A program made the position numbers and the translations under genes. From contig JAUIEM010000109.1 in NCBI GenBank assembly GCA_030428695.1, positions 1-24,810 of the forward strand: DNA of 24,810 bases. The letters run 5' to 3'. Below the pieces are notes generated by a model, which saw nothing but the letters and a program-made list of their open reading frames with translations, was not told where the DNA came from and ran no database searches. Shown here piece by piece: positions 2,651-20,060 of the stretch (positions are counted from its first letter, which is position 1; each line of letters begins with the position of its first letter). The stretch is from a bacterium. GTDB lineage: Bacteria; Planctomycetota; J058; JAJDCP01.

Positions 2651-5398
2651 CTACGAGCGCTCGGAGGGCTCGATGCGCACGTTCTTGAAGAAGCGCTCCA
2701 TCAGCCGATCGAGGGTCTCGTGGGTCATGCCGAAGTAGTACTCCGGCGGGCGCCGCGAGCGGTTGTAGCGGTCGTGCAGCAGCTCGAGGTAGTCGCCGCG
2801 GTAGCGCCCGTCGTCGAAGTGCATCATGAAGTACACGATCGCCCCGGCCCCGCGGTAGTTCTGCGAGATGTCCCCGCTGTCCCACTCGCGCCCGGTGCGG
2901 AAGCCGAGCATGTCGACGAAGGAGTGCTCGTCCTCCCCCTGCCGCAGCCGCCGGATGTAGCCCATGATGCGCTGGTAGTCGCTGATGCTGCCGAGGCTGA
3001 GGTACTCGCCGGCGAAGAAGGCGCTCTCGAGGTAGACCGCCGCCCCCTCCGCCAGCCAGCTCGGCGCCCCGCCGCCCCGGGACAGCTCGCCGAGGATCTG
3101 GTGGATCAGCTCGTGCTGCAGGGTCGTGAAGGACACCCGGTCGCCGTTGCAATAGAAGAAGGAGCCCCCGCGCCGCCCGCTGTAAAACCCCGCGGCCCAG
3201 TCGGTCGGCGGGTTGGCGTGGTCGCGGAACTGCTCCTGGGAGCGGTAGAGGTTCACGACCATCTTCTCGGGGATCTTCCCCATCCCGAAGATCAGCTGGG
3301 CGCCCTGGTCGCCCTTGAAGAACAGGTCGTACTGCCGGAAGACCTGCAGGAACACGGCCTCGAGCCGCTTGAGCACGGTCGCGGTCAGGTGCAGGTCGGC
3401 GGTCGAGATCAAGAGGAAGTTCTCGCTCTCGATGCGCCACGCGTTGTCGGGCTCGCTGTGCGCCTCGTTCGCGGCGCTCAGCGAGGTCCACTCGCCTGTC
3501 TGCGGGTCGAAGATCTCGCCGGCCCGGTAGCGCTCCTCCTCCCCGACCGGCATCCAGGCGAACTCGTCGGACCAGACCTCCCCGCCCTGGAGCCGCTCGG
3601 CCTCGTACTTCCGGTACCAGACCCCGTCGATCAGCACGTGGCCGAGCCCCTCGTGGGCGTCGGCGTTGTTCGGATCGAGCTTGAGCAGGGTCTGCAGGAG
3701 GTCGAAGGCCTGGCCGGCCAGCCCGGCGCGCAGGCAGTTCTCGACCGCCTTGCCGAGCCGGTTGACGGTCTTCGCCACCGCGCTCTCCAGGCGGCTCTCG
3801 AAGACCTTGTTCAGCTTGGGGAGCTCGTCCTCGCTGACCATGTGCATCACCTCGCCGAGGGCGGCGAGCACCGGCGCGCTCTGCTCCTCGTCGAGCTCGA
3901 GCCCGGCCATCACCTCGTCGATGCGTGCGCGGGCGGAGCGCGGGGCGAAGTTGCGCTCGTCCATCCAGCCGACGACCTCGGTGAGGGCGTCGAGGGCGCC
4001 GGACTTCTGCTCGTCGACGAAGGCCTCGAGCTCCTTGCGCAGCTCGTAGCGCTTGACCCGCTCGTTGTGGCGGGAGGCCTGCACGCTCGCGTGTTCGGTG
4101 GTCGGCTCCAGCGAGTTGAGCATCGCGATCACTTCGGCGCGCTCGCTGTCGAGATCCCACTCCTTGCACTGCTCGGCGAGCTCCTGCCACATGCCGGGGC
4201 CGCTCGCGTCGAGGAAGGCGTGGCGGAACCAGGCGCGCCGGTGCTCGTGGCGGACGGCGCGCAGGCTGGCGTCGCTGCGGAAGGGCCGGCCGTGCTCGTC
4301 GTAGAAGGCGAGGATCTCCGCGGCGTCCCGCAGGTCCTTCTTCGCGATGCCGAGGCTGATCTGCATGCACTCGAGCATCTCCGGGATCAGCCCCTCGCGT
4401 CCGCTGGAGCGCGCGCCCTCGTACTCCCCGGCGAGGCGCGCGAAGCGCACGTCCCAGGGCTCGACGGGCTCGGCCTCGGTCGGCGCGGGCTCGGGCTCGG
4501 CGGGCCCCTCCTCGACCTCCGGCTCGGGCGCCGGGGGCGGCGGCTCCTCGTCGTTCCCGCCGGCCTCGATCACGATCGGCGGCGGCAGCCCGTCGTCGAT
4601 CACCGGCGGCACGACCACCTCGAGCGGCGGCTCGGGCTCGGGGTCGCGGACCGCGGTCTCCGAAGGCGTGCCGGGCAGGGGCGGCAGCGGCGGAAGCGGA
4701 CGCGGGTCCTGCAGCCGCTCGGGCTGCTCGCTGCGCGGGCCCTCGGCGACAGGCGGCGGGAGAGGATCTTCCTCCTGCCCGATCGAGCGGATGAACATCA
4801 CGCACACGACCAGGATCATCAGCCCGACCCCGATCAGGAAGCGCTTGCCTTCCCGGCGCTCGGCCGCCTCGATCCACTCCGGGCGCGGGCCGGGGCGGCG
4901 TGCCCGGCGCGCGGGCTCGGGGCGCGGAGGCTCCGGCGGCAGCGCGGGCGTCGCGGCGATGGCGAAGGGCTCGGGCTCCGGCGCGGCCGGAGGTTCCGCG
5001 GCTGGCGCGACGGCGGGCGCGACCGCGGCGAAGCGCAGGATCTCGAGCTCCTCGAGGTACTCGCTGCCCGGCCCGTCCGGCTCGGAGGCCTCGAGCGCGT
5101 CGTCGGCGCGCAGGGGAAAGATCTCGCCGCAGCTGTGGGTGTAGGCCGTGCCCTCGGCGAAGGCCGGATACTTCAACCTCCGGAAACACCCGGGGCAGTG
5201 GGTGCGATGGGCGTCGCTCTCCTCGGACGAGGTGCCGAGCTCCTCCTCCGCTGACTCCTCCGTCGTCGGCCTGCGCGGCCGCTCGAGCAGGAAGCTGACC
5301 CCGCAGGCGTGGTCGAGCCGTGAGCCGGCGCGCGCCGGCGGATAGGACAGCGTCTTCGCGCAGCCCGGGCAGCGGGTCTGGAGCTTTTGTTCTGGCAT
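2651..5398 (-). CDS. Zinc-ribbon / transmembrane / peptidase-MA-like metalloprotease
   Basis: A 915-aa protein. The ATG at 5396-5398 (MPEQKLQTRCPGC) is chosen over one 25 codons upstream because a GGGAGG ribosome site precedes it and the cysteine motif follows at once. Order of parts: zinc ribbon 1 (Cys10, Cys13, His30, Cys32); zinc ribbon 2 with identical spacing (Cys68, Cys71, His88, Cys90); Pro/Glu/Ala-rich linker; one transmembrane helix at about 187-207 (FLIGVGLMILVVCVMFI); a second Pro/Glu-rich linker to about 320; a long helical region with a TPR-like unit near 560-585; and a gluzincin-type catalytic site. The last has the HELIH motif at 762-766 and Glu784 in WLAEGAAVYLE as the likely third zinc ligand. 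This resembles peptidase-MA-like/DUF1570 domains. The ribbons would lie in the cytoplasm and the protease outside it. Substrate unknown. All catalytic residues look intact. Confidence 0.85.
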   Translation of the reverse strand: MPEQKLQTRCPGCAKTLSYPPARAGSRLDHACGVSFLLERPRRPTTEESAEEELGTSSEESDAHRTHCPGCFRRLKYPAFAEGTAYTHSCGEIFPLRADDALEASEPDGPGSEYLEELEILRFAAVAPAVAPAAEPPAAPEPEPFAIAATPALPPEPPRPEPARRARRPGPRPEWIEAAERREGKRFLIGVGLMILVVCVMFIRSIGQEEDPLPPPVAEGPRSEQPERLQDPRPLPPLPPLPGTPSETAVRDPEPEPPLEVVVPPVIDDGLPPPIVIEAGGNDEEPPPPAPEPEVEEGPAEPEPAPTEAEPVEPWDVRFARLAGEYEGARSSGREGLIPEMLECMQISLGIAKKDLRDAAEILAFYDEHGRPFRSDASLRAVRHEHRRAWFRHAFLDASGPGMWQELAEQCKEWDLDSERAEVIAMLNSLEPTTEHASVQASRHNERVKRYELRKELEAFVDEQKSGALDALTEVVGWMDERNFAPRSARARIDEVMAGLELDEEQSAPVLAALGEVMHMVSEDELPKLNKVFESRLESAVAKTVNRLGKAVENCLRAGLAGQAFDLLQTLLKLDPNNADAHEGLGHVLIDGVWYRKYEAERLQGGEVWSDEFAWMPVGEEERYRAGEIFDPQTGEWTSLSAANEAHSEPDNAWRIESENFLLISTADLHLTATVLKRLEAVFLQVFRQYDLFFKGDQGAQLIFGMGKIPEKMVVNLYRSQEQFRDHANPPTDWAAGFYSGRRGGSFFYCNGDRVSFTTLQHELIHQILGELSRGGGAPSWLAEGAAVYLESAFFAGEYLSLGSISDYQRIMGYIRRLRQGEDEHSFVDMLGFRTGREWDSGDISQNYRGAGAIVYFMMHFDDGRYRGDYLELLHDRYNRSRRPPEYYFGMTHETLDRLMERFFKNVRIEPSERS

Positions 5399-5430
5399 GG
5401 AGGGGCCTCCCGTACGGGCGAGACAGACCC

Positions 5431-5436
5431 AGTGTA
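5431..5436 (-). promoter_or_regulatory. Putative -10 element (TACACT) of the metallopeptidase gene
   Basis: The minus strand reads CTACACTGGG about 33 bp upstream of the ATG. The -35 is weak (GCGACA at longer spacing). It lies in the 97-bp gap after the end of gene D, so this gene probably starts its own transcript. No hairpin-plus-T-run terminator of the preceding operon was found in this gap. Confidence 0.4.
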
Positions 5437-5495
5437 GCGCATCGCCGGGGGCCGATTGTCGCGGTTTCTTCATCCTCGCAGTTAAAGAGACAGAA

Positions 5496-8400
5496 CTACG
5501 GCCGCACGGCGGGATCCGCCGCCTGGGCGTCCGGCACGGTCAGCACCCAGCTCTCGAGCACCTTGGTCCCGATCGCAGGCACCCCGTCGGGGTTCCAGAT
5601 GTCGGCCTCGGTCACGGTGCCCGCGTCGTCGCCGGCGGGCGTCGCGTCCTCCCCGGGGTCCGGCGGAGGCGGCACGATCTTCGACGAGGGCGACTGCGCC
5701 AGCTTCCGCATCATCGCGACCAGCCGCTCGGGGTCGCGCGGCACCCGGTCCTGCGGCACCCCGAGGCGGTCGGCGCAGAGCCTGCGGCGGAAATCGCGCA
5801 CCTGCTGCGAGCGCCCGTCCTCGTGCTGCTCGTCCCACACCACCCCGGCGACCGAGCTGTCGAAGGAGAGCCCGCGCCGCGACAGGTGGGTGGTTCCGGT
5901 CAGCACGAAGCTGTCGTCGACGACCACCGTCGTCGACAGGATGCGCAGCGAGCGCCCCGCGCCGGCGGCGGGGAAGAGGACCGCCACGCGCTCGGCGAGG
6001 CCGACGGCCCAGGGCGGGCGCGGTCCGGCTTCCTCCTCCCGCAGCCTGCGCAGCGCGGCGTGCAGCAGGCCGTCGCGCACGCGCTGCTCCTGCTCCGGGG
6101 CGCCCGGGACGAGGAAGCGCGCGACGACCAGCACCAGCTGCAGCCCCGGCCGCGCGAGCATGCGGTCGCGGATGCGCTCGACCAGGTTGCGCCCGCCGCG
6201 GGTCGGATCGACGTCGAGGGCGTCGAGGGCGGGGGTCTCGATGTAGAGCAGGTCCTCCGCGCGGTCGATGGCGGACTCGAGGGCGTCGAGCCCCTCGGTC
6301 GCGCCCCAGGCGCCCAGGGAGAGGCGCCGCCCGACCAGCCGCGTCAGGCTGTTCGGGGCGCTGCCGCCGGCGAGGGTCGCGAGCGCTCCGAGCACGCCGA
6401 GGCCGGCGAGATCGAGCGGGAACAGGTAGGCGGCGCCGAGCGCGCCCGTGACCAGCCCGGTGCCGAGGAAGGACTCGAAGCCTCCCGCGGTCGTGCGCAA
6501 GAGGCTGGCCCAGACCACGGGCGCATCCCAGTCCTCGGAGACGTCCGCCGGGGCGAGGGCCAGGGCGCCGTTCGCGAGGTCGTCGAGGTCCGCGTGGCGG
6601 CGGTCCATCGCGATCTCCCAGGCCAGCATCACGCCCTCGCGGTTCAGCCGCAGGCCGGTCCCGTGGGCGTCGACCCCGCCCGGGGCGAAGGGCATGCCGT
6701 GGTGGTGCGGCAGCCCCTCGCGGTAGCGCGTCAGGCAGGGGGCCGCGCCGAGCGCCGCGAGGGGATCCGGCGGCGGAGGGATCGGCGGAGGGAAGGGCGG
6801 CGGCCAGTTGTTGATCGTCGGCTGCAGGACCGCGACAACCTCCTTGCGCTGCAGGCGCCGGGGCAGGTAGCCGGCCTCGAAGGGGTTCGCGTCGCGCGTC
6901 CGCTCGGACAGCACCGCCGGGGCGAGGGCCGCCGCATCGCTGCCGGCGGGCAGGCTGTCATGGGCCCGGGCGGTGGTCAGCACCTCGAGCCCCGGCCGGG
7001 CGAGCGGCGGGAAGGTGTCCGGGTGCCAGGGGGCGCTCCCCGGCGTGACCAGCGTCGGCGGATCGGCGAGGTCGACGGCGACCATGCCCGCGGCGAGCTG
7101 TCCTCCGGCCGGATCCTCGAGGATCTGCCCGCTCCCCGGGTTCCACGGCACCGGGCTGCCCCCGGCGAGGTCCGGGCGCTCGAGCCGCTGGGCGGGGAAC
7201 CAGGCCGTGCGCAGCTGGGGCGGCGTGCCGCCGTCGGAGGTCGTCACCGCCACGGTCACGCGCACGCTGTCGAACAGCGAGGAGCTTCCAGCGGGCAGCG
7301 GCAGCGCGAGGGCCGCGACCGCCTCGCTCCCGACGGCGAGCGCCGGTGCGCCCGCGCCGTCGCGGGCGTAGGCGAGGCCGGTGGAGGGGTCGAAGCCGAG
7401 CGCCCAGGCCCGCACCCAGGCGCCGACCAGGCCAGCGGCCAGGCGCACTCGCAGGAGCATGCGCTGGTCCTGCACCAGCCCGCCGGTCTCGGTCCCCGCC
7501 CCGACGATCGCCGCGGTCTCGAGGCCGACGAGTCGGTCGGGCGGATCGGCGACCGCCACCGCGGCCGGCGCCGTCGAGGTCGCCGCCCCCCAGCCCCGGT
7601 CGAGCTGGGGCGTGACCAGGTAGGCCCCCGGCGGCGGCGCCCCCGCGCCGGCCGGCACCCGCAGGGCGTCGAGCAGGGCGAGCGCGGCGCTGTCGAGGTC
7701 GGGGCACAGCGGCGTGAGGCCGCGCGGCATGCGCACCACCCGCGGCTTGCAGAAGGGCGCGTTCTGCAGGGCCCGGCGCCGCGCCCGCAGGGCGTCGCGG
7801 TGGAAGCCGACCGGATCGACCCCCGGCGGCGGGTCGTCCGCGTACTGGGCGGGCACGGCGTCGCCGCGCTCGATCCCGGTCAGGAAGCGCTCGGGGGAGA
7901 GCAGGGCGACGCGCACGAAGTCGCGGTGCAGGATCGGGAAGTCATCGCTCGGGTCTATCGCCTTGCCCGGCCAGTAGTCGAAGTCGTGCTCGTTGTGGGC
8001 CAGGCCGCCGGGCAGGATCACCGCGAGCGGGTCGGGGAAGGCGTTGACCGGGGGGTCGTCGGGGTCGGTCTCCTGCATCCGGATCTTCACATCCTGGTTG
8101 ACGATGCGGAAGCCGACCGGCGTGTCGCCGACCCGCAGCAGGCCCGCGGCATCCTCGTCCACCCGTTCCAGCAGCCGCGGGTCGACCGGCCCCCCGTGGG
8201 GGTTGACGAAGTGCACGGTGTGGGTGGGGTCGACCGGGCAGGTGCGGCTGTCCACGCCGCGGGCGAACAGGCCGCCGAGGGGCCCGGGCAGGCCGACGTC
8301 GTCGATGTACAGCCACCACTCCGCCACCGCCCCCGGCTCGACCGGCCGCCCGCGGGCGTCGAAGCACCACAGCCGGTAGCTCGTCTCCGGCTGCAGCTTG

Positions 8401-9077
8401 CACAGCTTGTCGGCGAGCGGCGGCACGGTGTCGGGCAGCAGCCAGCCCACCGGCAGCTCCCCTGGCCGCGCGAGCAGCCGCATCGAGCGCTCGCGGTTGA
8501 CCAGCTTGCCGCCTTCGAGGCGCAGGCCGAGCAGCTCCCAGCCATCGCCGGAGGCGGGCAGGTCGAGGACGTCGACGAACAGCGCGGCGACGTCCGACGC
8601 GGTCCAGCCCGGGTCGAGCTCGAGGCAGAACCAGCGCACCCGCTCCCGGGTCGGCGGGTCGTTCCAGGCGGCGGAGGCGGTGATCTCGGCGTTGCGGCTG
8701 CCGAAGCTCGCGTCGACGGCGGGGATCGTGCGGCTCAGCCGGTGCATCTCCTCCTCGACCTCGGCGAGCAGGCGGAAGGTGACGACCAGGCTGCCGTCGG
8801 CGAAAGGCTGCCCGCCGTCGGTGCCGCGTAGCCGGGCCAGGTCGCGGTGGCGGCGGCTGGCGTCGATCACGTACAGGCTCAGCCAGCCGGTGGCGGGCGG
8901 CATCCAGTGGTAGCCGTGCTGCTCGTCGTCGTCCGGCAGGTTGGCCAGGGGCGGAACCGTGAAGCGCACCGCCAGGCTGGTCTCGGGCGTCGGCAGCTCG
9001 ATCAGCGCGGTGTTGAACCAGGGGCCGATGGCGGGCAGCCCCTGCCCGCCCGCCCACAGTGACCAGATCGCCGCCAT
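5496..9077 (-). CDS. Operon gene D: giant protein with degenerate phospholipase-D-like C-terminal module
   Basis: An 1193-aa protein, last of four co-directional genes. Its ATG (9075-9077) directly follows the stop of gene C (TAGATG), and a GGGAGG site lies inside the end of gene C, so translation is probably coupled. No signal peptide or membrane helix is evident. Residues 1 to about 760 are beta-rich and unrecognised, followed by a proline run near 770-785. From about 790 to 1110 it resembles bacterial phospholipase-D-superfamily proteins: 'LYIET' at 944-948, the second catalytic motif region at 1047-1073, then FRRRLCADRLG at 1096-1106, equivalent to the usual RxxLWxEHLG tail. The HxKx4D spacing is exact, but His and Lys are Leu1047 and Thr1049; only Asp1054 remains, and GSxN reads GTTH (1061-1064). 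The first HKD half is also not visible. It is therefore probably catalytically dead and could be a binding or structural module. Gene call strong; PLD relation moderate. Confidence 0.85.
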   Translation of the reverse strand: MAAIWSLWAGGQGLPAIGPWFNTALIELPTPETSLAVRFTVPPLANLPDDDEQHGYHWMPPATGWLSLYVIDASRRHRDLARLRGTDGGQPFADGSLVVTFRLLAEVEEEMHRLSRTIPAVDASFGSRNAEITASAAWNDPPTRERVRWFCLELDPGWTASDVAALFVDVLDLPASGDGWELLGLRLEGGKLVNRERSMRLLARPGELPVGWLLPDTVPPLADKLCKLQPETSYRLWCFDARGRPVEPGAVAEWWLYIDDVGLPGPLGGLFARGVDSRTCPVDPTHTVHFVNPHGGPVDPRLLERVDEDAAGLLRVGDTPVGFRIVNQDVKIRMQETDPDDPPVNAFPDPLAVILPGGLAHNEHDFDYWPGKAIDPSDDFPILHRDFVRVALLSPERFLTGIERGDAVPAQYADDPPPGVDPVGFHRDALRARRRALQNAPFCKPRVVRMPRGLTPLCPDLDSAALALLDALRVPAGAGAPPPGAYLVTPQLDRGWGAATSTAPAAVAVADPPDRLVGLETAAIVGAGTETGGLVQDQRMLLRVRLAAGLVGAWVRAWALGFDPSTGLAYARDGAGAPALAVGSEAVAALALPLPAGSSSLFDSVRVTVAVTTSDGGTPPQLRTAWFPAQRLERPDLAGGSPVPWNPGSGQILEDPAGGQLAAGMVAVDLADPPTLVTPGSAPWHPDTFPPLARPGLEVLTTARAHDSLPAGSDAAALAPAVLSERTRDANPFEAGYLPRRLQRKEVVAVLQPTINNWPPPFPPPIPPPPDPLAALGAAPCLTRYREGLPHHHGMPFAPGGVDAHGTGLRLNREGVMLAWEIAMDRRHADLDDLANGALALAPADVSEDWDAPVVWASLLRTTAGGFESFLGTGLVTGALGAAYLFPLDLAGLGVLGALATLAGGSAPNSLTRLVGRRLSLGAWGATEGLDALESAIDRAEDLLYIETPALDALDVDPTRGGRNLVERIRDRMLARPGLQLVLVVARFLVPGAPEQEQRVRDGLLHAALRRLREEEAGPRPPWAVGLAERVAVLFPAAGAGRSLRILSTTVVVDDSFVLTGTTHLSRRGLSFDSSVAGVVWDEQHEDGRSQQVRDFRRRLCADRLGVPQDRVPRDPERLVAMMRKLAQSPSSKIVPPPPDPGEDATPAGDDAGTVTEADIWNPDGVPAIGTKVLESWVLTVPDAQAADPAVRP

Positions 9078-12000
9078 CTAGCGTCCTCCCGCGTCCCCTG
9101 GCGGCGGAAACACCGCGCTCCGCCAGGGGCTCATCCGCTCGAGGGGATCGACGAGCGCGATGCGGTAGCGCGTCGGCGCGCTCGGCGCGGTCGTCGTCCA
9201 CAGGTTCTTGTCGCTCGCCCGCACCTCCGCCAGCGGGCGCTCCTCGGCGCCGGGCTCGGCGACCCGCAGCAGGTAGCGGTAGCCGCCGACGCTGCCGCCC
9301 CGCAGGTCGCCGGGCGGATGCTCCCAGGTCAGCCGCACCGTCCCGGGCCGGTACTCGCTGGCCGTGAAGCCCTGCGGAGCGCCGGGCGGCGGCGCGGGGA
9401 ACCAGGTCCCGACGCGGTTGCTCGGCGGGCTCCAGGCGCCGGGCAGGGTGGAGCCCGGCAGGTCGGCCCCCTGGACCTCGACGACCCAGGCGTAGCGCAT
9501 CCAGGGCCGCAGCGGCGCATCCGTCGCGTGGGGCCAGCCGCCCGCGTCGACCAGCTCGAGGCGTCGCTTCCCGGCCTCGATCGCCCCTTCCGCGACGACC
9601 AGCATGGCGAGGGGATCAGCGACGGCGACGGTCGTGCGCCGCAGCCGCCAGCGCACGGCGGAGGTTCCTCCTCGCACGAGCTGCACCGCGAGCTGCACCT
9701 GCCCGTCCGCGCGGCCCGTGACCTCGAGCAGGGGCCGGGCCGGCGGGGCCTGGTTGGGGATGCCGCGGGGCACCAGGGTCGCGGCCTTGAAGCTGCCCTC
9801 GACCCGGGTCTCGGAGACCGGCACCACCTTGTAGAACAGCAGCACCCCGAGGCCGGCGTCGACCCGGTGGGTGAAGGAGGAGCGCCCGAGCGGCGTCGGC
9901 GTCAGCAGTTCGAAGGCCTCGCGGCCGAAGATGTCGGCCTTGTTGACGAAGTGCGCCGCGCGATCCTGGGGCAGCGCGATCGCCCGGGCCTGATTCTGGA
10001 AGCTGCGGCCGGCGAAGGCGCCGAGCCGTGTCTCGTCGCTGAAGTAGACCCGCCAGCGCGTGCGCTGCGCCGACGGCCAGTCGAGGCTGACGGTCGCGCG
10101 CCCGGTCACGTCGGGGCGGGAGGCGTAGACCAGCGTGTTCGGCAGCGAGACCGGAGGCGGCGGGCGGCGGTCGACCATCGTCACCCGCACCGCCGGCGAC
10201 CAGGCCCCGGCGTTGCCCTCGCCGTCGGTGAAGCGCGCCCGGTAGCGGCCGGAAGCCTCGGCCCGTGGCGCGAGGGGGAGTCCCGGGAAGGTGACCGCGA
10301 CGGTCTCGCCCGTGACGGTGACGCTGCTGGGCGCAGGAGGCCCCTCGAGGGTCTCGAGCTCGACGTGGGCGAGGGGCAGCGCGCCCAGGCACAGGCTCGC
10401 CGCCGGCGGGACGGGGATCGACAGCCGCAGCGCACCGGCCGCATCCCCCGTCGCCGGAGGCTCCTCGGGGGGCGTGTAGGCGCCGCGCAGGGTCGCGGCC
10501 GGCGGCGCGGGCCGCGGCAGCTCGTCGACGACCCGTGAGCGCCAGGGGCTCGCGCGGCCGAAGATGTCGACCTGCGCGAGCTTGAGGATGCCGTTCTCCC
10601 GCGGCAGCGCGAGGGACACCTTCGGGTCCTGGCCGGCCGGCGGGAAGATCAGCTTGCGCCGCCCGGTCACCCGCGCGGGATTGAGCGAGACCGGGCCGTG
10701 CGGGCCGAGCAGCGCCGCCGCGAGCCCCGCTCCGGGCAGCAGGCCGGCCAGCCCGACGTCGGCGATGCGCACGGCCTCGGGAGGAAGCAGCGGACCGTCC
10801 GCGCTCACCGACACGATCTCCGGCGCGGGGGGCGGATCGGGTGGAGCCCCCGCCACCACACAGGCGACCGCCCACAGCTCGACCGCGACCGACTGCCCGG
10901 AGACGAGGTCGCCGGTGGTGTCGAAGGCGTCCGGGAAGGGCAGCTGCGGGTCCTCGTCGGCGGCCATCGAGGCGGGCGAGCGCAGGCCGGGGGTGAGCGC
11001 GGCGAAGTCGCGCGAGTACGCGGTCCAGAGGTCGAAGTCGTAGAGGAAGCGGGCGCGGAACAGGTAGGCGATCAGATGCCCCTGCTGGTTGCTGCCGAGG
11101 CCGGTGTCGAGCCCGGCCAGCCCGAGCCAGCGCGCGACGCCGGGGTCCCGGGCGGCGAGCAGCAGCTGCTCGAGCCGTCGGCCGCGGAGGCTGCCCGCGG
11201 CGTTGCCGGTCCCGTGCAGGCCGTGGGAGAGGGTCTGCAGGTGGGGCTTGACGCTGTCGTCGAGCAGCGCCTGCAGGGTCCCGTCGAGGGTGTTCCCGCC
11301 GGGGGCGACCAGGTTCCCGTGCACCGAGCCGATCACCCCCGCCAGGCGCTGGATCTCGGCGCTCGCGGGCGAGCCGATCGGGGTACAGGCCGCCGGGTTG
11401 CCCGCCTCCGGCTGATCCTCCAGGCCGAGGGCGCGCGGGGCGCCGTAGCCGACCCGGTCCGCGCTGCCGTGCTCGGTCAGCGCCTCGTAGCGCCGGCCGC
11501 TGCGCACCGGCAGGGCGAGCAGGCTGTGCAGCCGCGACTCGTGGACCGTCATCTTCGCCGACAGCCAGAGCAGCCCTTCGACCTCCCCATCCCCGCTGAC
11601 GAACACCCGCTCGATGTGGGAGGCGCACAGCTCCCAGGGCTCGGCGCTGCGCGTGAACAGGGTCTCGAGGCGCCCGCCTACCGGGCCGCGGATCGAGACC
11701 TGCAGCGAGCCGCTGCCGAGCACCTTCACCCACACGCAGGGGTCCCAGGTCCCGGCGGGGATCAGCCCCCAGGCTCCGTCCTCGGGCACGTCGAAGGGCG
11801 GGGACAGGGGCCGCCCCTCGTTGTCCACCCAGACCGCCGGCGCGGCCTGGTCGAGGGTGGTCACCTCGGCCGCCGCCTCCCCGAGGTCGATGCGGTACAC
11901 CCCGACGGGCCGCGTCGGCAGCCCGACCAGCGGCGTCGGCAGCAGCCGCAGGTGGACCCCTGGCGCGAGGTGCGGATCGTCGTCCCCCTCGAGGGCGAGA

Positions 12001-12110
12001 GCGCCGAGGGCGAAGCGGGGCGCGAACACCCGCGCTCGGCCGTCACGGCTGGGAGGAACCAGGACGGTCGTCGTGTCTTCGCGCAGGCGCAGAACGGGCT
12101 GGAGCGGCAT
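9078..12110 (-). CDS. Operon gene C: large protein with fibronectin-III-like segments
   Basis: A 1010-aa protein. The ATG at 12108-12110 (MPLQPVLRLRED) overlaps the stop of gene B by one base (TGATG), with AGGAGG 7-12 bp upstream, which fixes this start and suggests coupled translation. The N-terminal 400 residues are unrecognised. They include a helical stretch near 280-370 (RRLEQLLLAARDPGVARWL). The C-terminal 550 residues are strand-rich with Pro-bounded units. The clearest is a fibronectin-III-like unit at about 908-1005 (PPPGAPQGFTASEY, then TVRLTWEHPPG and YRYLLRV). Weaker ones lie near 570-650 and 650-720. No signal peptide, transmembrane segment or catalytic motif is seen. Such domains typically mediate protein or glycan contacts, so a structural or adhesive part in an assembly with A, B and D is plausible. 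The function is unknown. Confidence 0.85.
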   Translation of the reverse strand: MPLQPVLRLREDTTTVLVPPSRDGRARVFAPRFALGALALEGDDDPHLAPGVHLRLLPTPLVGLPTRPVGVYRIDLGEAAAEVTTLDQAAPAVWVDNEGRPLSPPFDVPEDGAWGLIPAGTWDPCVWVKVLGSGSLQVSIRGPVGGRLETLFTRSAEPWELCASHIERVFVSGDGEVEGLLWLSAKMTVHESRLHSLLALPVRSGRRYEALTEHGSADRVGYGAPRALGLEDQPEAGNPAACTPIGSPASAEIQRLAGVIGSVHGNLVAPGGNTLDGTLQALLDDSVKPHLQTLSHGLHGTGNAAGSLRGRRLEQLLLAARDPGVARWLGLAGLDTGLGSNQQGHLIAYLFRARFLYDFDLWTAYSRDFAALTPGLRSPASMAADEDPQLPFPDAFDTTGDLVSGQSVAVELWAVACVVAGAPPDPPPAPEIVSVSADGPLLPPEAVRIADVGLAGLLPGAGLAAALLGPHGPVSLNPARVTGRRKLIFPPAGQDPKVSLALPRENGILKLAQVDIFGRASPWRSRVVDELPRPAPPAATLRGAYTPPEEPPATGDAAGALRLSIPVPPAASLCLGALPLAHVELETLEGPPAPSSVTVTGETVAVTFPGLPLAPRAEASGRYRARFTDGEGNAGAWSPAVRVTMVDRRPPPPVSLPNTLVYASRPDVTGRATVSLDWPSAQRTRWRVYFSDETRLGAFAGRSFQNQARAIALPQDRAAHFVNKADIFGREAFELLTPTPLGRSSFTHRVDAGLGVLLFYKVVPVSETRVEGSFKAATLVPRGIPNQAPPARPLLEVTGRADGQVQLAVQLVRGGTSAVRWRLRRTTVAVADPLAMLVVAEGAIEAGKRRLELVDAGGWPHATDAPLRPWMRYAWVVEVQGADLPGSTLPGAWSPPSNRVGTWFPAPPPGAPQGFTASEYRPGTVRLTWEHPPGDLRGGSVGGYRYLLRVAEPGAEERPLAEVRASDKNLWTTTAPSAPTRYRIALVDPLERMSPWRSAVFPPPGDAGGR

Positions 12111-15100
12111 CAGATGGCCTCCTGGGCGAAGCTCCGCGGACCGGCGAGCACCGCCCGCCGCGCCAGCAGACGCAGGCTTCCGGACATCACCTCGAGGACG
12201 AGCACGCCCTCCCCGGTCAGCGCGAGGGGCTCGGAGGCGGCGAACAGCAGCCGGCTGCCCGCGCGGTTGCTGCGCACGAGCTCGAGGTTCCCGCGCTTCG
12301 CGCCGTCCTCGCCCTCGACGGTCAGCCCGGCCGCGTGCAGGCGCGGCTCGCTCTTCCCGAGCTTCGGGGGATGCTCGAAGGGCTCGAGGGCGTCGAGCAG
12401 CACGCCGGCGAGCCGCCAGCCGGAGCCTCCCTCCGTCCACAGGGCGAAGCAGCGCGCCTGGTCGGGGTCCGGCAGCGGGTCGTAGCCCCAGGCGCGCAGC
12501 ACCTCCTCCAGGGCGGCGTCGTCGCCGAGCTTCGGCTCCCGGGGAGCGGAGCCGGACACGAACAGGTCGACCGGGGCGTGCGGTCCGACATCCTCCTCCA
12601 GCCGGAAGCCGAGCGCCGCGAGGGCCTGCAGCGGACCCTCGTAGCGCGAGGTGCGGAAGACCCGGCGCACGATCACGTAGGCGCCCTGGGGGCCTTCGGC
12701 CTGCAGCCGCAGCTCGTACTCGGTCCAAGGCTCGAGCGCCGCCTGGATCACGTAGCTGCCGCCGTTGTCGACCGGCTCGGACAGGCAGGGGGCCTCGCGC
12801 ATCGCCTCGGCCAGGGCGACCGTCACCGGGTTGCGCAGGCCCGCGGGCAGGGCGACGCGCTCGAGGCTGGCCGGCACCTCGATCGCGATGTCCTCGAGGT
12901 CGACGACCGTCGGCGCGGGGCGCGTGCGCCGCACCCGGGCGACGAGGGTAAGGCCGTAGGCGTCGAGCAGCCCGTCGACGTACTCGATGCCGAAGTGGGC
13001 CTGGAGGGCGTCCTTGAAGAACCAGGGGACGTCGGGCTCGGCGGGCTCGATCCCCAGCAGGTGCCGGCGCAGGGCGCGCGGGTCGAAGATGTCCTGGCCG
13101 CGCAGGTCGACCCCGACGCCCGGATCGCTGGCGAGCGGCGCGGTGCGGAAGCTGAAGCGCTGCTCGACCGGCGTCGCCCCGCCCCAGGTCGGCTCCCCGG
13201 GCTTGTCGTGGGCGTCCTCGCGCTGCCAGCCCACCCACTCCCAGGTCGCCTCGACCTCGATCTCCGCATCCGCGGGCAAGAGCCCGATGCGGTCGGCGAG
13301 GGCGCCGCTCAGGCCCTGGTTCAGGTGCTCCCGCTGGTCCGCCCGCAGCCGGGTGATCGCCTGGCTGGCGGCGACCTCGTCCGCGACCTGGCCGTGGCAG
13401 CCGAGGAACCAGATCGAGCCCTCGGGAGCGCGCAGCATCGGCGCCGCTGTGATGCGCAGCGACTGCCAGTCCGTGTCCTTCTCGCCCTCGGGCGGCGTCG
13501 CGAGGAAGGTCGCCCAGCCGTCGCCGTCAGGGAACAGCTGGCGGTGCACGGCCGTGAGCTCCCAGCCGAGCTCGCGGTCGCTGGCCAGGCCGATGACCTG
13601 CAGGCCGGCGTGGGCGACGTCCTGCTCGGTCAGGCCGACGTCCTGGGTGACCGAGAAGTGCACCTCGCGCAGCAGGGTGCCGTCCGGGACGTCGATGCGG
13701 AAGCTCTGGACGCCGTCTCCGATCGCGACCCGGCGGGAGCCCGGCGCCAGGTCGACCTTCCAGGCCAGGTCCCCGACCTCGACCCTCGCGACGCCGCGGT
13801 TCTCCAGCCAGAGCTGCACGCGGACGTCGTCGGCAAGCACGGGCAGGGTGATGTCGGCGACCAGCTTGGCGAGCAGCAGGCCGTTGCTGTACTGGCGGAA
13901 GGCCCCGTCGGAGACCGTGACGCCGCCGCTGGTGACGCGACGCTCGACGCCGAGGCTGGAGGGGGTCGGCTGGTTCGGCTGGAACTCCTCGGGCGCGTCC
14001 TCGGGCTCGAAGGAGACCATCGTCGACTCGGTCAGGCGGAGGGTCTTGCGCAGCCGCGTCGCGAGCACGACCAGCGGCTGGGCCAGCGCGGGCAGGAAGC
14101 GCACGCGCAGCAGCGACTGGCCGAGGATGCGGCCGCGGGCCCGGGCGTGGGCGGCGACGAAGCCCTGGGTCAGGGTGCCGAAGCTCCGATGCTCGACGTG
14201 CATCTCCTCCGGCAGCGTCCCGATCCGCCCGTACTCGACCCAGCGCGGATCGCTGCCCGCCTGCATCGACGCGACCTCGGCGACCGGCTGATCCCAGACC
14301 TCCTCCGCGAGCAGCACCTTGAAGCTGTCGAGGTCGATCCCGCCCTTGACGAGGTCGGCGCCGGGCGCAATCCACAGCGGCCCGGCCGGCACGGTGTCCG
14401 CCCCGAGCGCCGAGCGCCACTGCGCGGCGCCGCCGGGCTGGCACAGCCGCTCCAGGCCGTCGGCGACCGGGAGCTGGCCCTCCTCGGCGACCGGCAGGGG
14501 CAGCGAGCGCAGCTGCAGGCTCGGGTCGGCGTCGAGCAGCTGGAGGTCCCAGCCCTCCGCCTCGGAGACCAGCTCCTCGGCGACCGTCGGCCGGTGGTGG
14601 GGCAGGCCCCAGGTGCTCGGGAAGGGCCCGGGCAGCGACTGGCCGTCGGCCTTGATGCGCAGGGAGCGCAGCCGGTAGGCATACTTGAGGTCGTCGGTGC
14701 CGCAGAACTTCGCCGCCCCCCAGCCGGGGCCCGGGTCGAAGGGCTGGTGGCCGGCGGCGAGGTCGACGCCGAGCGGGTGGGCGAAGGACAGCACCGCGAC
14801 CGCGTCGGGCCAGACGACCGCGTCGTCGCCGGCCTCGGTCAGCACCCGGCCGGAGCGGTCGAGCAGCAGCATGCGGTCGATCAGGGGCGGCGGATCGGGG
14901 ATCTCGCGGGTCGGCTCGGAGCCGACCTCGATGTCGACGCAGCCCTCGATGGTGAAGAAGAAGAACGAGACCTTCGCGCACACGTGGCCGTGGAACTTCA
15001 GCGAGCTCGCCTGTTCCCCCAGCATCAGCGAGAAGCTCGCCGACACGCCGAGGGCGATCAGCCACAGATCCAGCTCCCCCTTGATCGCGACGGAGGCGCC

Positions 15101-18100
15101 GACCAGGAAGGGCTTGAAGCCGACGCCGGCGAGGAAGCGCGCCGAGAAGCGCAGGGCGAAGGGCCCGGCGGTCCACTCCGACTTCCAGCCCGCCCCGAAG
15201 CCGAAGCTGAAGCCGTCGAAGGACAGGTCGCTGCCGCCGAGCTTGCGCAGCCCGTGGGACTCGACCATCGCGTAGGCCCAGGCCCGCACTCCGAAGCTGC
15301 CGGGCAGGAAGTCGACGGTCACCGGGTCGCCGGAGCGGCCCTGGCGGCCGTCGGAGCCGATGCGCAGGTGCCACCTCAGGTCCGTGCCGAAGTGTGAGCC
15401 GACCGGTACGCTGACCTTGAACAGGGGGCTGAGGTCGAACTCCCCGCGCAGGGCGAGGGTCACCCCGTCCTCGAAGGCGACCAGCCCGGTCAGGGCGCCG
15501 ACCCCGCCCTCGCGCACCTCGGCGAGGGCGCGGGGGCTGGCGAGGATCTTCCCCCGCACCCCGAACACCACCGACGGATCCGGCCCGCCGACCGCGAGCA
15601 TGCCGTCGGCGTTGACCGTGTAGCCGCGGTCCGCGATGCTCCCGACCACGGCGCCGAGGCCGAAGGCGAAGGCGCCGTCGCGGGGCTCGTACTTCTGGTC
15701 GACCGGGGCGTCGTACCAGGCGAGCTCGCGCGCGACCGCGTCGTCCCCGGACAGCGCCCGGGCGCCGTGGCTGACGAAGCGGCCGCGCAGGCCGAACAGG
15801 CCGAGGCCGGTGCCGAGCAGGGGGATCGGCGAGGCGTAGTCGACGGCGAGCTCGACCTGGGTCATCGGCCCGTCCGTGACCAGGTGCCCGAGCGCCCGCA
15901 CGCCGACCGGGATCAGCTCGACGTCCAGGGCCGCCGTCATCTTCCCGTCGTCGAGCTCGAGCTGGCCCTCGCCGGCGATCACCCCGGGCACGTCGAGGCT
16001 GATGCGCAGGCCGCGCAGCTCGAGCTCGGCCCCGTCCTCGGTGAAGCGCACGCGCAGGGTGGCGCCGCTGACCCGGATCACGCCGAGGTCGCGGGCGAAG
16101 CTGAGGTCCATCTCCACCCAGGCCGAGCCGGTGCCGAAGCGCACCGCGATGATGTTCAGGAAGCCGCTGAGGAACCCCGGCAGCTGCCACACCCCCGGGT
16201 CGACGATCTCGAACTGCGCGTCGTCGTAGGAGAAGCCCCAGCGCTCCATCAGCGACAGCGAGGAGTCCTGCCGGTAGGTCAGGCCGACGTTCTTGTAGCG
16301 CACCCGCGCCGGCTCGGTGGTGCCGACGCCGGCCTTGGCCGGATCGACGTGCAGGTCGACCGCGTAGTCGAGGCCGATGCGGGTGTAGTGGCCCTCGCTC
16401 GCGTCGATCACCCGCCGATGCCGGGCCTCGAAGCGCTCGATCCGCACCCGCCCGTCGTCGGTCAGCCAGACGACGGCGGTCGCCGCGCCGAACAGGGCGG
16501 CGTAGCCGACGAAGCGGCTCTTCCCGTCGCTGTGCCCGTGCAGCCCTTGCAGCATCGCCGGGGCGAGGGCGAGCAGGGCGGCGGCTTCGCGGTGGCGGAA
16601 GCTGAAGATCTCGCCCGGGGCGTGCTCGACGTCGAGGGCGAGGAGGACCTCCATCGCGCCGGTGTGCTGGTCGAAGGAGAGCCCGCCGCGCACGCTCCAG
16701 ACACCGTCGGGACCCCCCTCCGGCGCGACCTCCCGGCCGTCGGGGAAGGAGATCGGCCCCGCCGGCCAGTCGACGCGCACGTCGACCAGGGTCGGCAGGA
16801 GGTCGAGGGCCGAGGCCCACACAGGGCTGTCCCAGCGCATCCCGAGGTCGAGGCGGAAGGGCGGCTTCGGTCGGGAGCGGCGCGCCTCCGGCACGGCGGC
16901 GTCCGGCCCGGGCAGCAGCACCTCGCGCACGCCCCCGCGGTCGCCCTCGAGGCGCAGGGGCTGCGCGTCGCCGGGGACATGCCGCGGGGCGAGGGCGTAG
17001 AGGTCGACACGCCGCAGCTCGCGGGCCTCGGCGTGGGCCTGCTCCCAGTCTTCGGAGCCCTCGATCTTGTCGACCGCGAACCAGGCGACCTCGAGCCGCG
17101 CGTCGAGGCTCTCCCGGTCGGGGAAGCCCGCCAGGGGGGTTCCGGAGCGGTCGGCCTGCCAGTCCGCCTCCATCTCCGCGCGCCAGGCGACCCGCTCGGC
17201 GGCGAGGCCGGCGTCGAGCAGCATGCGCCCGCCGACCGCGGCGCGGTCCCGGGCCAGGCGCAGGTTGCGAGCGCGGGAGCCGCCGGGGCTGCAGCGGCCG
17301 ACGGCGAGGAAGCAGCAGTCCGCCGGCAGCGCGCCCGCCCAGCGTTCGACCAGCGCGGCGAGCTGCTCGTGGGCGCTGCCGCCGGGCAGGTCATGGGCGC
17401 CGGGGAGCGACGGCGCGCGGCGTGGATCCTCGTCGAGCACCAGCTCGCTGCCGCCGAAGGCCTCCGGCACCAGCTTGTCCGCCGCGTCCCAGGCATCCTC
17501 CAGGGGAAACAATGCGCGCCCGCCCTCGACCCGCTCGCCGTCGACGGGGAAGAACATCCGCAGGTGCAGGGCGGCCCGATGCGTCGGCGGAACCTCGAGC
17601 CGGCGCGCGACCAGCTCGCCCTCCTGGGGGTCGTCGTCCGCCGCGCCCGGGGCGAAGTGGGGCAGCAGCGCGCCGCGCTGGTGCCAGGCGATCGCGTCGT
17701 AGCGGCCGGTCTCCACCGCCGGCCCGACGCCCGGGCCAGACAGGCCGTCGAGGCCGGCGACCAGCAGCGGGGCGCCGGGCACCACCTCGATCCGCAGCCG
17801 GCGGCGCCGGGCGGGCTGGTCCGGATCGCGCAGGGCGAGGGCGTGGCGTCCGGCCGGCAGGGTGCCGAGGGTGAGCCGCGGCCCGGTCTGGAGGATGCCG
17901 GCGGCGGGCAGCTCCCAGACCACCGCGCCCGGCACGCTGAGCTCGAGACCAGCGAGGGCCTCGGGGGCGCCGGACACGGTCAGCACGCCGGCGACGGACA
18001 GTCCGCCGCCGGACAGGCTGACGGCGGGAGCGAGGGGCTGGGCGTGGACGAACTGGTAGCGCTTCTCCTCGCCGAAGGCGAAGGTCCCGTCCTCGCGTAC

Positions 18101-19207
18101 GAAGCGGTCGGCGACGCCGAGCACCGCGCCGGGGGTCGGCAGGAACCAGCCGCTGTCCAGGCCGACCGCGGGCTTCTCGCCGGGCACGCGCCACTGGACC
18201 ATCGGCACCTGGTCCTGGTCCTCTGGCTCGGCCGGGATCTCGGGCACGTGGGCCCGCACGAGGGAGCTCCCGTCCCACGGCACCAGGCGCGGGTCGGCGC
18301 CTTCGTCCACGCCGCTCAGGGCCGTGACCGTCGAGCCGCTGCGAGCGGAGAATTCGACGCGCTCGGCGAGCCGGAAGGGGCGGCCGAGGGAGGCGCGCAG
18401 GTCGCCCTGCACGCCGCCTTCCTCCCAGCCGAGCAGGAGGTTCTCCAGGCTCGCGTTGACCTGGCCGATCGCGAACAGGTCCGGCGGCAGGTAGACCGTC
18501 GCCTGCTCGAGCATCAGCCCCTGCCAGGCCGGCCCGTGGCTGCGGGCGCGCACGGTGTGGTCGGAGATGGTGCGGCTGAGGTCGAGCTGGGCGCGCTCGA
18601 CGGTCACCCCGAGGCCGACGCCGGGTACCAGGAAGTGCGGCGGGTCGAAGGCGAGCTCGAGCAGCCCTGCCTCGGCGTCGGGGTCGAAGGGATCGGCGAC
18701 GCGCCCGAAGCTGACCTCCACCGAGCGGTTGGCGCCCGGGGCCGGGATGTCGAGCCGCAGCGAGGCGCTGGTCCGCGCCCGCAGCACGCGCCTGGTCGGG
18801 TCGGGCTGGAGGCGTGCGGGCGCGCCCGGGGTCGCGGGCACCAGCGCCGCCGGCGTCAGCGGCAGCTCGACCTCGAGCAGGTCGAAGTCGATGTCGAGCA
18901 CCAGGTCCCCCGGCGCCGGCTCGACGTCGAGGCCGGTGCGGTTCCCGCGCTGCCACTGGGCGCGGAAGGCGACCGGGGCGTTGAGCGCGGGCAGGCGGAA
19001 GGGCAGGCTCTTGCCGAACAGCCCGCCGAGCTCCTCGACGGACTGCGCCCGGCCGTCGTAAAAGAACGCGGCCGGCGAGCTGCCCGCCTCGACCTCGACG
19101 ATCGACAGGGCGGCGAGCAGCTGCAGGAGCGGCGGCGGCAGCAGCGCCTTGTAGCCGTAGCCGATGCCGACCAGGTCCGCCAGGCTCAGCCCGAGCAGCG
19201 CGCTCAT
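12110..19207 (-). CDS. Operon gene B: 2365-aa beta-rich giant with OmpA-like insert and DUF6603-like core
   Basis: The start is the ATG at 19205-19207 (MSALLGLSLADLVG), preceded by GGAG and 28 bp after the end of gene A; an ATG 23 codons upstream lies inside gene A. The hydrophobic N-terminus (to about residue 35) lacks a clear cleavage site. Residues about 613-673 look like an OmpA C-terminal domain: AVGRCSPGGSRARN, then LRLARDRA and LLDAGLAAERV, paralleling the GHTDxxGxxxxNxxLSxxRA pattern. The peptidoglycan-contacting Asp position is replaced (Cys-Ser) while the Arg655-Ala remains. Residues about 1080-1430 are amphipathic, Gly-rich strands (FGLRGRFVSHG; FAFGLGAVVGSIADRGYTV; GASVAIKGELDLWLIALGV; KVSFFFFTIEGCVDIEVG), recalling DUF6603-type proteins; that match is from memory and unverified. 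The C-terminal 900 residues are more beta-rich sequence without known motifs. No frameshift is visible over 7 kb. Function unknown. Confidence 0.85.
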   Translation of the reverse strand: MSALLGLSLADLVGIGYGYKALLPPPLLQLLAALSIVEVEAGSSPAAFFYDGRAQSVEELGGLFGKSLPFRLPALNAPVAFRAQWQRGNRTGLDVEPAPGDLVLDIDFDLLEVELPLTPAALVPATPGAPARLQPDPTRRVLRARTSASLRLDIPAPGANRSVEVSFGRVADPFDPDAEAGLLELAFDPPHFLVPGVGLGVTVERAQLDLSRTISDHTVRARSHGPAWQGLMLEQATVYLPPDLFAIGQVNASLENLLLGWEEGGVQGDLRASLGRPFRLAERVEFSARSGSTVTALSGVDEGADPRLVPWDGSSLVRAHVPEIPAEPEDQDQVPMVQWRVPGEKPAVGLDSGWFLPTPGAVLGVADRFVREDGTFAFGEEKRYQFVHAQPLAPAVSLSGGGLSVAGVLTVSGAPEALAGLELSVPGAVVWELPAAGILQTGPRLTLGTLPAGRHALALRDPDQPARRRRLRIEVVPGAPLLVAGLDGLSGPGVGPAVETGRYDAIAWHQRGALLPHFAPGAADDDPQEGELVARRLEVPPTHRAALHLRMFFPVDGERVEGGRALFPLEDAWDAADKLVPEAFGGSELVLDEDPRRAPSLPGAHDLPGGSAHEQLAALVERWAGALPADCCFLAVGRCSPGGSRARNLRLARDRAAVGGRMLLDAGLAAERVAWRAEMEADWQADRSGTPLAGFPDRESLDARLEVAWFAVDKIEGSEDWEQAHAEARELRRVDLYALAPRHVPGDAQPLRLEGDRGGVREVLLPGPDAAVPEARRSRPKPPFRLDLGMRWDSPVWASALDLLPTLVDVRVDWPAGPISFPDGREVAPEGGPDGVWSVRGGLSFDQHTGAMEVLLALDVEHAPGEIFSFRHREAAALLALAPAMLQGLHGHSDGKSRFVGYAALFGAATAVVWLTDDGRVRIERFEARHRRVIDASEGHYTRIGLDYAVDLHVDPAKAGVGTTEPARVRYKNVGLTYRQDSSLSLMERWGFSYDDAQFEIVDPGVWQLPGFLSGFLNIIAVRFGTGSAWVEMDLSFARDLGVIRVSGATLRVRFTEDGAELELRGLRISLDVPGVIAGEGQLELDDGKMTAALDVELIPVGVRALGHLVTDGPMTQVELAVDYASPIPLLGTGLGLFGLRGRFVSHGARALSGDDAVARELAWYDAPVDQKYEPRDGAFAFGLGAVVGSIADRGYTVNADGMLAVGGPDPSVVFGVRGKILASPRALAEVREGGVGALTGLVAFEDGVTLALRGEFDLSPLFKVSVPVGSHFGTDLRWHLRIGSDGRQGRSGDPVTVDFLPGSFGVRAWAYAMVESHGLRKLGGSDLSFDGFSFGFGAGWKSEWTAGPFALRFSARFLAGVGFKPFLVGASVAIKGELDLWLIALGVSASFSLMLGEQASSLKFHGHVCAKVSFFFFTIEGCVDIEVGSEPTREIPDPPPLIDRMLLLDRSGRVLTEAGDDAVVWPDAVAVLSFAHPLGVDLAAGHQPFDPGPGWGAAKFCGTDDLKYAYRLRSLRIKADGQSLPGPFPSTWGLPHHRPTVAEELVSEAEGWDLQLLDADPSLQLRSLPLPVAEEGQLPVADGLERLCQPGGAAQWRSALGADTVPAGPLWIAPGADLVKGGIDLDSFKVLLAEEVWDQPVAEVASMQAGSDPRWVEYGRIGTLPEEMHVEHRSFGTLTQGFVAAHARARGRILGQSLLRVRFLPALAQPLVVLATRLRKTLRLTESTMVSFEPEDAPEEFQPNQPTPSSLGVERRVTSGGVTVSDGAFRQYSNGLLLAKLVADITLPVLADDVRVQLWLENRGVARVEVGDLAWKVDLAPGSRRVAIGDGVQSFRIDVPDGTLLREVHFSVTQDVGLTEQDVAHAGLQVIGLASDRELGWELTAVHRQLFPDGDGWATFLATPPEGEKDTDWQSLRITAAPMLRAPEGSIWFLGCHGQVADEVAASQAITRLRADQREHLNQGLSGALADRIGLLPADAEIEVEATWEWVGWQREDAHDKPGEPTWGGATPVEQRFSFRTAPLASDPGVGVDLRGQDIFDPRALRRHLLGIEPAEPDVPWFFKDALQAHFGIEYVDGLLDAYGLTLVARVRRTRPAPTVVDLEDIAIEVPASLERVALPAGLRNPVTVALAEAMREAPCLSEPVDNGGSYVIQAALEPWTEYELRLQAEGPQGAYVIVRRVFRTSRYEGPLQALAALGFRLEEDVGPHAPVDLFVSGSAPREPKLGDDAALEEVLRAWGYDPLPDPDQARCFALWTEGGSGWRLAGVLLDALEPFEHPPKLGKSEPRLHAAGLTVEGEDGAKRGNLELVRSNRAGSRLLFAASEPLALTGEGVLVLEVMSGSLRLLARRAVLAGPRSFAQEAI

Positions 19208-19235
19208 CGCCGCTCTCCGCGGGAGGATGCGTCCA

Positions 19236-20060
19236 TCACGCCGCCCCGCGCACGACGTGGCGCCGGCCGTCCGCACCGCGGAAGCGCAGCTGCCAGCCAG
19301 CGGGCCCGCCGAGCAGCTCGGGGTTGCCGGCAGCCCGGGCGGGAGCGCTCGCCGCGCGGGCCGGAGCCAGCCGCCCGTCGCGCAGGGCGAGCACGTGCAC
19401 GCGGCCGGCGGGCGTGCGGTAGGCGAGCAGGGGAACCTCGGACGCGCACACGGCGGGCAGCCCCGCGACCTTGGCCGGGCTCTGAGCGACGGACACGACG
19501 GCCCCGTCCTCGAGGACCGCGACGATCAGCCGGCGCCCCTCTCCGACCCAGGCGAGCACCGCCCGCCGCCCCTCGGGCTCGGCGTCGCTGACCAGCGGCC
19601 CGACCGCCTTCGGCACCCCCGCCAGCGGCGCCACGTTCCATTGTCCGCGGCGCCGCGTCGCGGTGTGCACGGCGCCCGCGGCGTCGACCCAGGCGACCGT
19701 CGGCCCCTGGCGGGTGACGTGCACCGCCGGCCGGCGCAGGCTGTCGACCCGCACGACCTCTTCGGTCGCCGCGGAGGCGCCCTCGGCGAAGCGCAGCAGG
19801 CGATCGTTGCCGACCCAGGCGAAGACCGGCTCCCGCACGCCCTGGGCGACCGCCGGCGGCCGCGCGGGCCGGTGCTCGCGGTCGGCCTCGGCGCGGGCGA
19901 GCCGGCCCTTCCACTCCCCTTCGAAGTCGCGCAGGAACGGCCCGCGGGGCAGCCCCTCGAGCGGGAAGCGCAGCTCCCAGCGCGCGCCGGTGTGCAGCAT
20001 CGCGCGGTCGTCGTGGCGGTTGATGCGGAGGCGGTGGGTCTCGGCGGTGGCGGTCGGCAT
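19236..20060 (-). CDS. Operon gene A: propeller-like repeat protein
   Basis: A 274-aa protein and the first gene of the four-gene unit. The ATG at 20058-20060 (MPTATAETHRLRIN) is preceded by AGAGGA. The longer reading frame upstream runs through non-coding-looking DNA. It contains a repeating unit of about 42-47 residues whose core is a hydrophobic strand with Ala-Trp-Val followed by a Gly/Asp turn and another strand: FAWVGNDRLLR at 80, VAWVDAAGAVHTA at 122, LAWVGEGRRLIV at 169, LAYRTPAGRVHVL at 212, and a weaker WQLRFRGADGRRHVV at 256. This spacing fits beta-propeller blades of the kind that display '(P)xxAWVDxxGxVHxA'. No signal peptide is present. A 252-bp leader region with an inverted repeat lies upstream and probably carries the operon promoter. 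The role is unknown; a scaffold or recognition subunit is a guess. Confidence 0.8.
   Translation of the reverse strand: MPTATAETHRLRINRHDDRAMLHTGARWELRFPLEGLPRGPFLRDFEGEWKGRLARAEADREHRPARPPAVAQGVREPVFAWVGNDRLLRFAEGASAATEEVVRVDSLRRPAVHVTRQGPTVAWVDAAGAVHTATRRRGQWNVAPLAGVPKAVGPLVSDAEPEGRRAVLAWVGEGRRLIVAVLEDGAVVSVAQSPAKVAGLPAVCASEVPLLAYRTPAGRVHVLALRDGRLAPARAASAPARAAGNPELLGGPAGWQLRFRGADGRRHVVRGAA

Follow-up and report, generated by a model that had tools for sequence, protein, structure and literature searches.

Which of the closely packed genes on one strand of a planctomycete contig belong together, and what might their giant products do? The question concerns positions 5496–20060 of contig JAUIEM010000109.1 (assembly GCA_030428695.1); "the window" refers here to the whole stretch of 24,810 nucleotides that was analysed. 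An earlier note, made from the letters of the DNA, had described four genes, called A to D here in the order in which they are read, as a candidate undescribed system. We are highly confident that three of them, B, C and D, constitute one functional unit, because their order, close spacing and co-occurrence are conserved, and they are probably parts of one machine.

Reading frames and conservation of B-C-D

The genes are located in the window as follows.

19236–20060, minus strand: gene A, 274 aa, uninterrupted frame
12110–19207, minus strand: gene B, 2365 aa, uninterrupted frame, the largest of the B-C-D proteins
9078–12110, minus strand: gene C, 1010 aa, uninterrupted frame
5496–9077, minus strand: gene D, 1193 aa, uninterrupted frame

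A gap of 28 bp separates A from B, B and C overlap by 1 bp (TGATG), and C and D abut with 0 bp between them. The sizes, spacings and intact frames first described for this single-strand layout were all reproduced exactly. The size of the frames had also been taken as a sign of selection, an argument that proved weak: the G+C content of the window is 0.725–0.780 (1-kb windows), its opposite strand contains open reading frames (ORFs) of 1020, 1144 and 1274 aa, and ORF length is poor coding evidence because antisense ORFs above 1000 aa arise at such a G+C content. The same antisense frames lend some colour to the idea that the genes themselves are chance ORFs in G+C-rich DNA. This is exceedingly improbable, however, as full-length relatives exist, including those of Alginatibacterium (L004), with codons that are much less G+C-rich, and the full-length relatives rule out spurious frames for B, C and D. 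Judged from the third-position G+C content of B (0.97) and D (0.96), together with the full-length relatives of all three, B, C and D are genuinely coding. Gene A lacks support of this kind.

Genome contigs scanned with the B alignment yielded eight loci, and plasmid searches yielded two plasmids with B, Paracoccus aminophilus pAMI4 and Rhizobium tropici pRtrCIAT899c. Phylum surveys added B in four Myxococcota genomes (G624, G696, G702 and G737) and, in the phylum of a Gemmatimonas metagenome-assembled genome (MAG; G001), in G850. This gave 16 readable B-bearing loci including the window, with two pairs of congeners (Nannocystis and Corallococcus) among them; 25 relatives of B from a protein search stand outside this count. 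The order B-C-D, closely spaced, was found in 11 of the 16 loci (window included), and the taxa beyond the window belong to Myxococcota, Gemmatimonadota, and Alpha-, Beta- and Gammaproteobacteria.

L002, Gemmatimonas MAG: B-C-D
L003, Nannocystis RBIL2: B-C-D
L008, Nannocystis pusilla: B-C-D in broken pieces, B in many frames, C and D in fewer
L004, Alginatibacterium: B-C-D
L006, Corallococcus llansteffanensis: B-C-D, D cut at the contig end with its remainder on G004:C421
L007, Derxia: B-C-D
G702 (L027/L028), Myxococcota: B-C-D
G850 (L042), phylum of the Gemmatimonas MAG: B-C-D, B in two frames
G624 (L044), Myxococcota: B-C-D, B apparently split across two contigs
L032, R. tropici plasmid: B-C-D, very divergent

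The broken frames of L008 may reflect an assembly error or decay. In R. tropici, C was detected solely by profile (E 5.2e-9), and order and spacing were nonetheless kept. Junction distances in nine loci, for which gene starts were inferred, ranged from 0 to 10 bp between C and D and from a 4-bp overlap to a gap of approximately 45 bp between B and C. Two further loci, L001 and L005, are short contigs with incomplete B and are uninformative on C and D; the other three are considered below with the function of the unit.

B-C-D thus recurs in distant taxa, an outcome that the earlier note had named as support for a system; the recurrence did not extend to A. The ORFs of the B loci include no relative of A at E ≤ 10 (the large protein database was not searched with A), and A matched no family in Pfam, NCBIfam, PHROGs or PADLOC. 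Both L002 and G702 (L027) have a same-strand gene directly before B; as candidate relatives of A these were rejected, their scores being matched by 410 of 500 shuffles for L002 and 28 of 500 for G702. No analysis gave support to the label "propeller-like" that A had received. Gene A therefore appears, on sequence comparison, to be a lineage-specific upstream gene outside the conserved unit, and a fair description of the locus would be three genes plus a variable neighbour.

Among 377 sampled Myxococcota genomes, B was found in five (E ≤ 1e-40), D in three (E ≤ 1e-15) and C in three (E ≤ 1e-10); C and D occurred in the same three genomes, all of them B-positive. The hypergeometric P value for D with B was 1.1e-6, a figure that assumes independence of the genomes, counts the seed genome G002 and is based on the best two candidates per genome. 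B is rare: it was found in 1 of 398 Pseudomonadota genomes, that one being the seed, and in 2 of 298 genomes of the phylum of the Gemmatimonas MAG, one being the seed. A quick tree of the B core (39 rows, many long branches flagged, no species-tree comparison) paired Nannocystis with Derxia, Gemmatimonas with Aquabacterium, and Paracoccus with Alginatibacterium. Because this tree mixes phyla and two copies lie on plasmids, horizontal spread of B-C-D is suggested. The ratio of nonsynonymous to synonymous substitution rates (dN/dS) of B between the two Corallococcus copies was 0.24 (1603 codons), and B appears from this codon comparison to be under purifying selection between them. Between the two Nannocystis copies, one of which is a broken locus, dN/dS was 0.51 for part of C (261 codons) and 0.46 for D (867 codons).

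Sequence and predicted structure of the proteins

Three regions of the window's proteins were delimited.

17138–17365, minus strand: OmpA-like domain of B, approximately residues 615–690, matched by the family profile
14921–16462, minus strand: core of B, approximately residues 916–1429, predicted to form long antiparallel strands that are hydrophobic on one face
5748–6290, minus strand: phospholipase D (PLD)-like lobe of D, approximately residues 930–1110, with the His and Lys of HxK...D replaced and the Asp kept

The 25 relatives of B from the protein search share 20–32% identity over the alignment. Searched alone against PDB by sequence, the window's B gave nothing usable; the B family profile matched solved OmpA-like domains (best E 1.1e-4), and its likeness is to the OmpA C-terminal domain. 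Pfam OmpA was matched weakly by 4 of 10 B-family members, the three scores shown all being below the cut-off. In the peptidoglycan-binding OmpA motif, a conserved Asp and a conserved Arg bind diaminopimelate. By eye, the Arg column is invariant in the B family, and 3 of 10 members have the Asp; unlike in OmpA, it is missing in the other seven, including the window's B, and the rest of B is dissimilar to OmpA. The B family thus appears to carry a degenerate OmpA-like domain whose diaminopimelate-binding residue pair is incomplete. The label "OmpA-like" given earlier to B holds at the family level, with scores below the cut-off, but not for the window's own B, which had no Pfam OmpA match.

The structure model of the B core had a mean predicted local distance difference test score (pLDDT) of 77 and a predicted template-modelling score (pTM) of 0.50. 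In its modelled strands, evaluated over 36 sequences, the two faces alternated in hydrophobicity (+2.2 versus −0.9), with a mean difference of 3.1 versus 1.27 (standard deviation 0.18) after within-strand shuffling. A viral fold library returned three weak matches to the core at E < 0.001 with template-modelling scores (TM-scores) of at most 0.13, which were not counted. No signal-like N-terminus was seen in the N-terminal sequences of B or its relatives, by inspection without a predictor, and the remark in the earlier note that signal peptides are absent agrees with these N-termini as inspected.

The alignment of C comprises eight members, and its aligned relatives share 27–34% identity. C matched fn3 in Pfam at E 0.22 and the interleukin-21 receptor in PDB by sequence at E 0.023, and is weakly fibronectin-III-like. 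The previous label "FN3-like" is weakly supported.

The alignment of D comprises seven members, with 30–36% identity among the aligned relatives. D gave nothing usable against PDB by sequence, and its profile, run against the protein database, returned no D proteins beyond three that were known before. In genome sequences the profile found L045 (G004:C793, E 4.8e-9) and L046 (G005:C1, E 5.9e-7); in a repeat search L045 was found again, and L046 was missed with default filters and scored 25.6 bits with the filters off. Both are PLDc_2 proteins by Pfam and keep the motif His and Lys. The catalytic PLD motif is HxK(x4)D, which is also seen in L045 and L046. Among 13 D proteins, the Asp is kept in all 13, the His in one and the Lys in none, and none has both His and Lys. 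These comparisons indicate that the C-terminal lobe of D is homologous to PLDc_2 proteins and has lost the catalytic Lys and, in 12 of 13 proteins, the His, and the earlier description of D as "dead PLD-like" was borne out. D resembles the PLDc_2/cardiolipin-synthase superfamily in the sequence of its terminal lobe; unlike PLDc_2, it has one recognised lobe, without the catalytic Lys, placed C-terminally in a protein of approximately 1100–1300 aa. The Foldseek list for the D model, mostly antibodies plus Pseudomonas PldA at E 0.02–0.03, was not counted.

Candidate functions of the unit

Computation shows that the unit exists and is conserved, that its genes co-occur, that D has lost PLD catalytic residues and that the modelled strands are hydrophobic on one side. 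Taken as a whole, the reading that we favour is tentative: B-C-D would be a horizontally spread unit encoding a soluble multi-protein assembly in which B binds hydrophobic or lipid partners and D is non-catalytic. The giant, mostly beta-stranded proteins would act together as one such assembly, and translational coupling would lead to their production in fixed proportion. B would form a large sheet, the hydrophobic face of which would bind lipid, rest on a membrane or shield a hydrophobic partner; C would serve as an immunoglobulin (Ig)/fibronectin-like spacer, and D would have retained its phospholipase-D fold for binding after catalysis was lost. That the proteins physically assemble, are soluble and bind lipid or membrane, and what each of them contributes, are our best guess.

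Several observations weigh against this reading. C and D were not found in two of the five B-positive Myxococcota genomes, in both of which B is incomplete: in G696, B is spread over two short contigs and the assembly yielded neither C nor D, and G737 has a 366-aa ORF (L031:9720-10820) with only the first approximately 256 residues of B, which may be a remnant or a short form, and likewise no C or D found in the assembly. Plasmid pAMI4 carries B-C, and its 438 kb contain no D. The single D protein that keeps the motif His is the divergent copy of G624 (L044:5226-9233), in which the Lys is lost, and the structure model of D was unusable (mean pLDDT 46). Alternating hydrophobic faces are expected in any ordinary beta-sandwich too and are thus no proof of lipid binding. 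Finally, the B core resembles outer-membrane barrels both in Foldseek and in VIA, a re-examination of the Foldseek matches in which absence of a match proves nothing.

The last resemblance leads to a different reading, in which the B core is a very large outer-membrane beta-barrel with an OmpA-like periplasmic anchor, with C and D as adhesin-like components exposed on the surface. With the barrels of LptD, ushers and porins and with ApoB-100, which is among the Foldseek matches, the B core shares long amphipathic antiparallel strands; a profile search found no sequence relation to them, and B shows no evident Sec-type N-terminus. The core lies mid-protein and is followed by approximately 900 residues, and the peptidoglycan-binding Asp is kept by just 3 of 10 members (by eye). 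The best 22 Foldseek rows have TM-scores by query of at most 0.19 and root-mean-square deviations (rmsd) of 18–56 Å, the porin matches in VIA have an rmsd of approximately 8 Å, and the pTM of the model is 0.50. In addition, a divergent relative, P0026, is labelled as coming from an Actinobacteria MAG and, if that label is right, comes from an organism with no such outer membrane. We regard an outer-membrane barrel as unlikely.

Alternatively, B, C and D may do separate, related jobs and be merely co-regulated, for example as independent surface or storage proteins. The Paracoccus plasmid without D fits such an arrangement, as does the fact that there is no direct evidence that B, C and D touch. 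Their co-occurrence and order, however, have been preserved through wide divergence and apparent transfer, which makes separate jobs rather unlikely.

The neighbours of two loci point in another direction, namely that the B-C-D proteins are the cargo of, or accessory to, a contractile or type VI-like injection system, or that their genes are part of a bacterial conflict locus. In Nannocystis RBIL2, the region upstream (L003:3409-9414) encodes a VgrG, a DUF4123/Tsi6 protein and a PAAR-Ntox46 effector, and in C. llansteffanensis genes for a SMODS CD-NTase and an AAA ATPase are found no more than approximately 3 kb from D (L047:2657-5036). Comparable neighbours were not recognised at the other loci, which were inspected mostly by eye without a library search. 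Because it was seen only in Nannocystis (L003 by Pfam, L008 by eye), the VgrG/PAAR neighbourhood was not taken as a clue to function. The PADLOC scan of A-D gave only DpdK (E 0.038, in C) and no defence-system match; no relative of B was found in phage records and no B or D in viral contigs, where C was not searched. An injection or conflict role is distinctly improbable, and a soluble, hydrophobic-binding assembly continues to be our preferred reading.

Relation to known families and systems

No convincing match to A-D was found in Pfam, NCBIfam, PHROGs or PADLOC; the PHROGs scan returned only phrog_31 (E 0.67), in C. A search of titles and abstracts, in a collection outside which lay most subscription journals and all preprints, returned nothing on B-C-D and no paper mentioning DUF6603.

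The earlier note had also called B "DUF6603-like". The curated Pfam cut-off for DUF6603 (PF20248) is 27 bits. The Paracoccus B scored 21.1 bits (E 1.4e-5), below the cut-off, the G702 B scored 11.9 bits, and in the family scan one of ten B members matched (E 0.081); the same search gave sub-cut-off matches in 3 of 14 control genomes at E ≤ 1. The B core appears remotely related to DUF6603 by sequence, the cut-off for membership being missed. The label therefore reflects a remote likeness in the Paracoccus member but does not fit the window's B, which had no DUF6603 match in Pfam.

True DUF6603 genes of Nannocystis RBIL2 and G624 likewise lie in closely packed runs of giant genes (L057, L058, L059 and L060), where genes were called by a simple in-house script. 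No sequence similarity between their neighbours and B, C or D was detected, and the seven of these neighbours that were scanned matched no Pfam family above its cut-off. Proteins of L059 and L060 both start with a similar "PGVHLHWALPDAL"-like stretch, by eye. A likeness of C to these proteins was suspected by eye at this stretch, and a profile search gave no support. The DUF6603 runs possibly represent a wider undescribed class of giant-protein operons, of which B-C-D may form a branch.

A more elaborate reading, by analogy and not homology to apolipoprotein B particles, would make B-C-D a lipid-carrying or membrane-coating particle: the B sheet would hold lipid, the dead PLD would recognise head groups, and Ig-like spacers would close the shell. 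It would further have the genes move between phyla as one cassette and belong to the DUF6603 giant-operon class. We consider this reading, taken as a whole, improbable.

Elsewhere in the window, an AAA_14/DUF4143 ATPase gene upstream of A (20387–21420) is split into overlapping frames. A 940-aa gene on the minus strand (2651–5473) lies 22 bp downstream of D and matches DUF1570 (E 4.5e-5); no match to it was found among the ORFs of the B-C-D loci. An Rfam search of the window gave no match, a tRNA search found none, and no plasmid DNA nearly identical to the window was found.

Our analysis provides a conserved 14-kb unit of giant proteins that occurs in at least three phyla and is unnamed by Pfam, NCBIfam, PHROGs and PADLOC. 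With three genes, plasmid-borne copies and copies in the named strains Corallococcus llansteffanensis, Derxia gummosa and Alginatibacterium sediminis, B-C-D is a well-defined target. Furthermore, it may supply a genomic context for DUF6603, a Pfam family of unknown function, because the DUF6603 genes here also sit in tight runs of giant genes.

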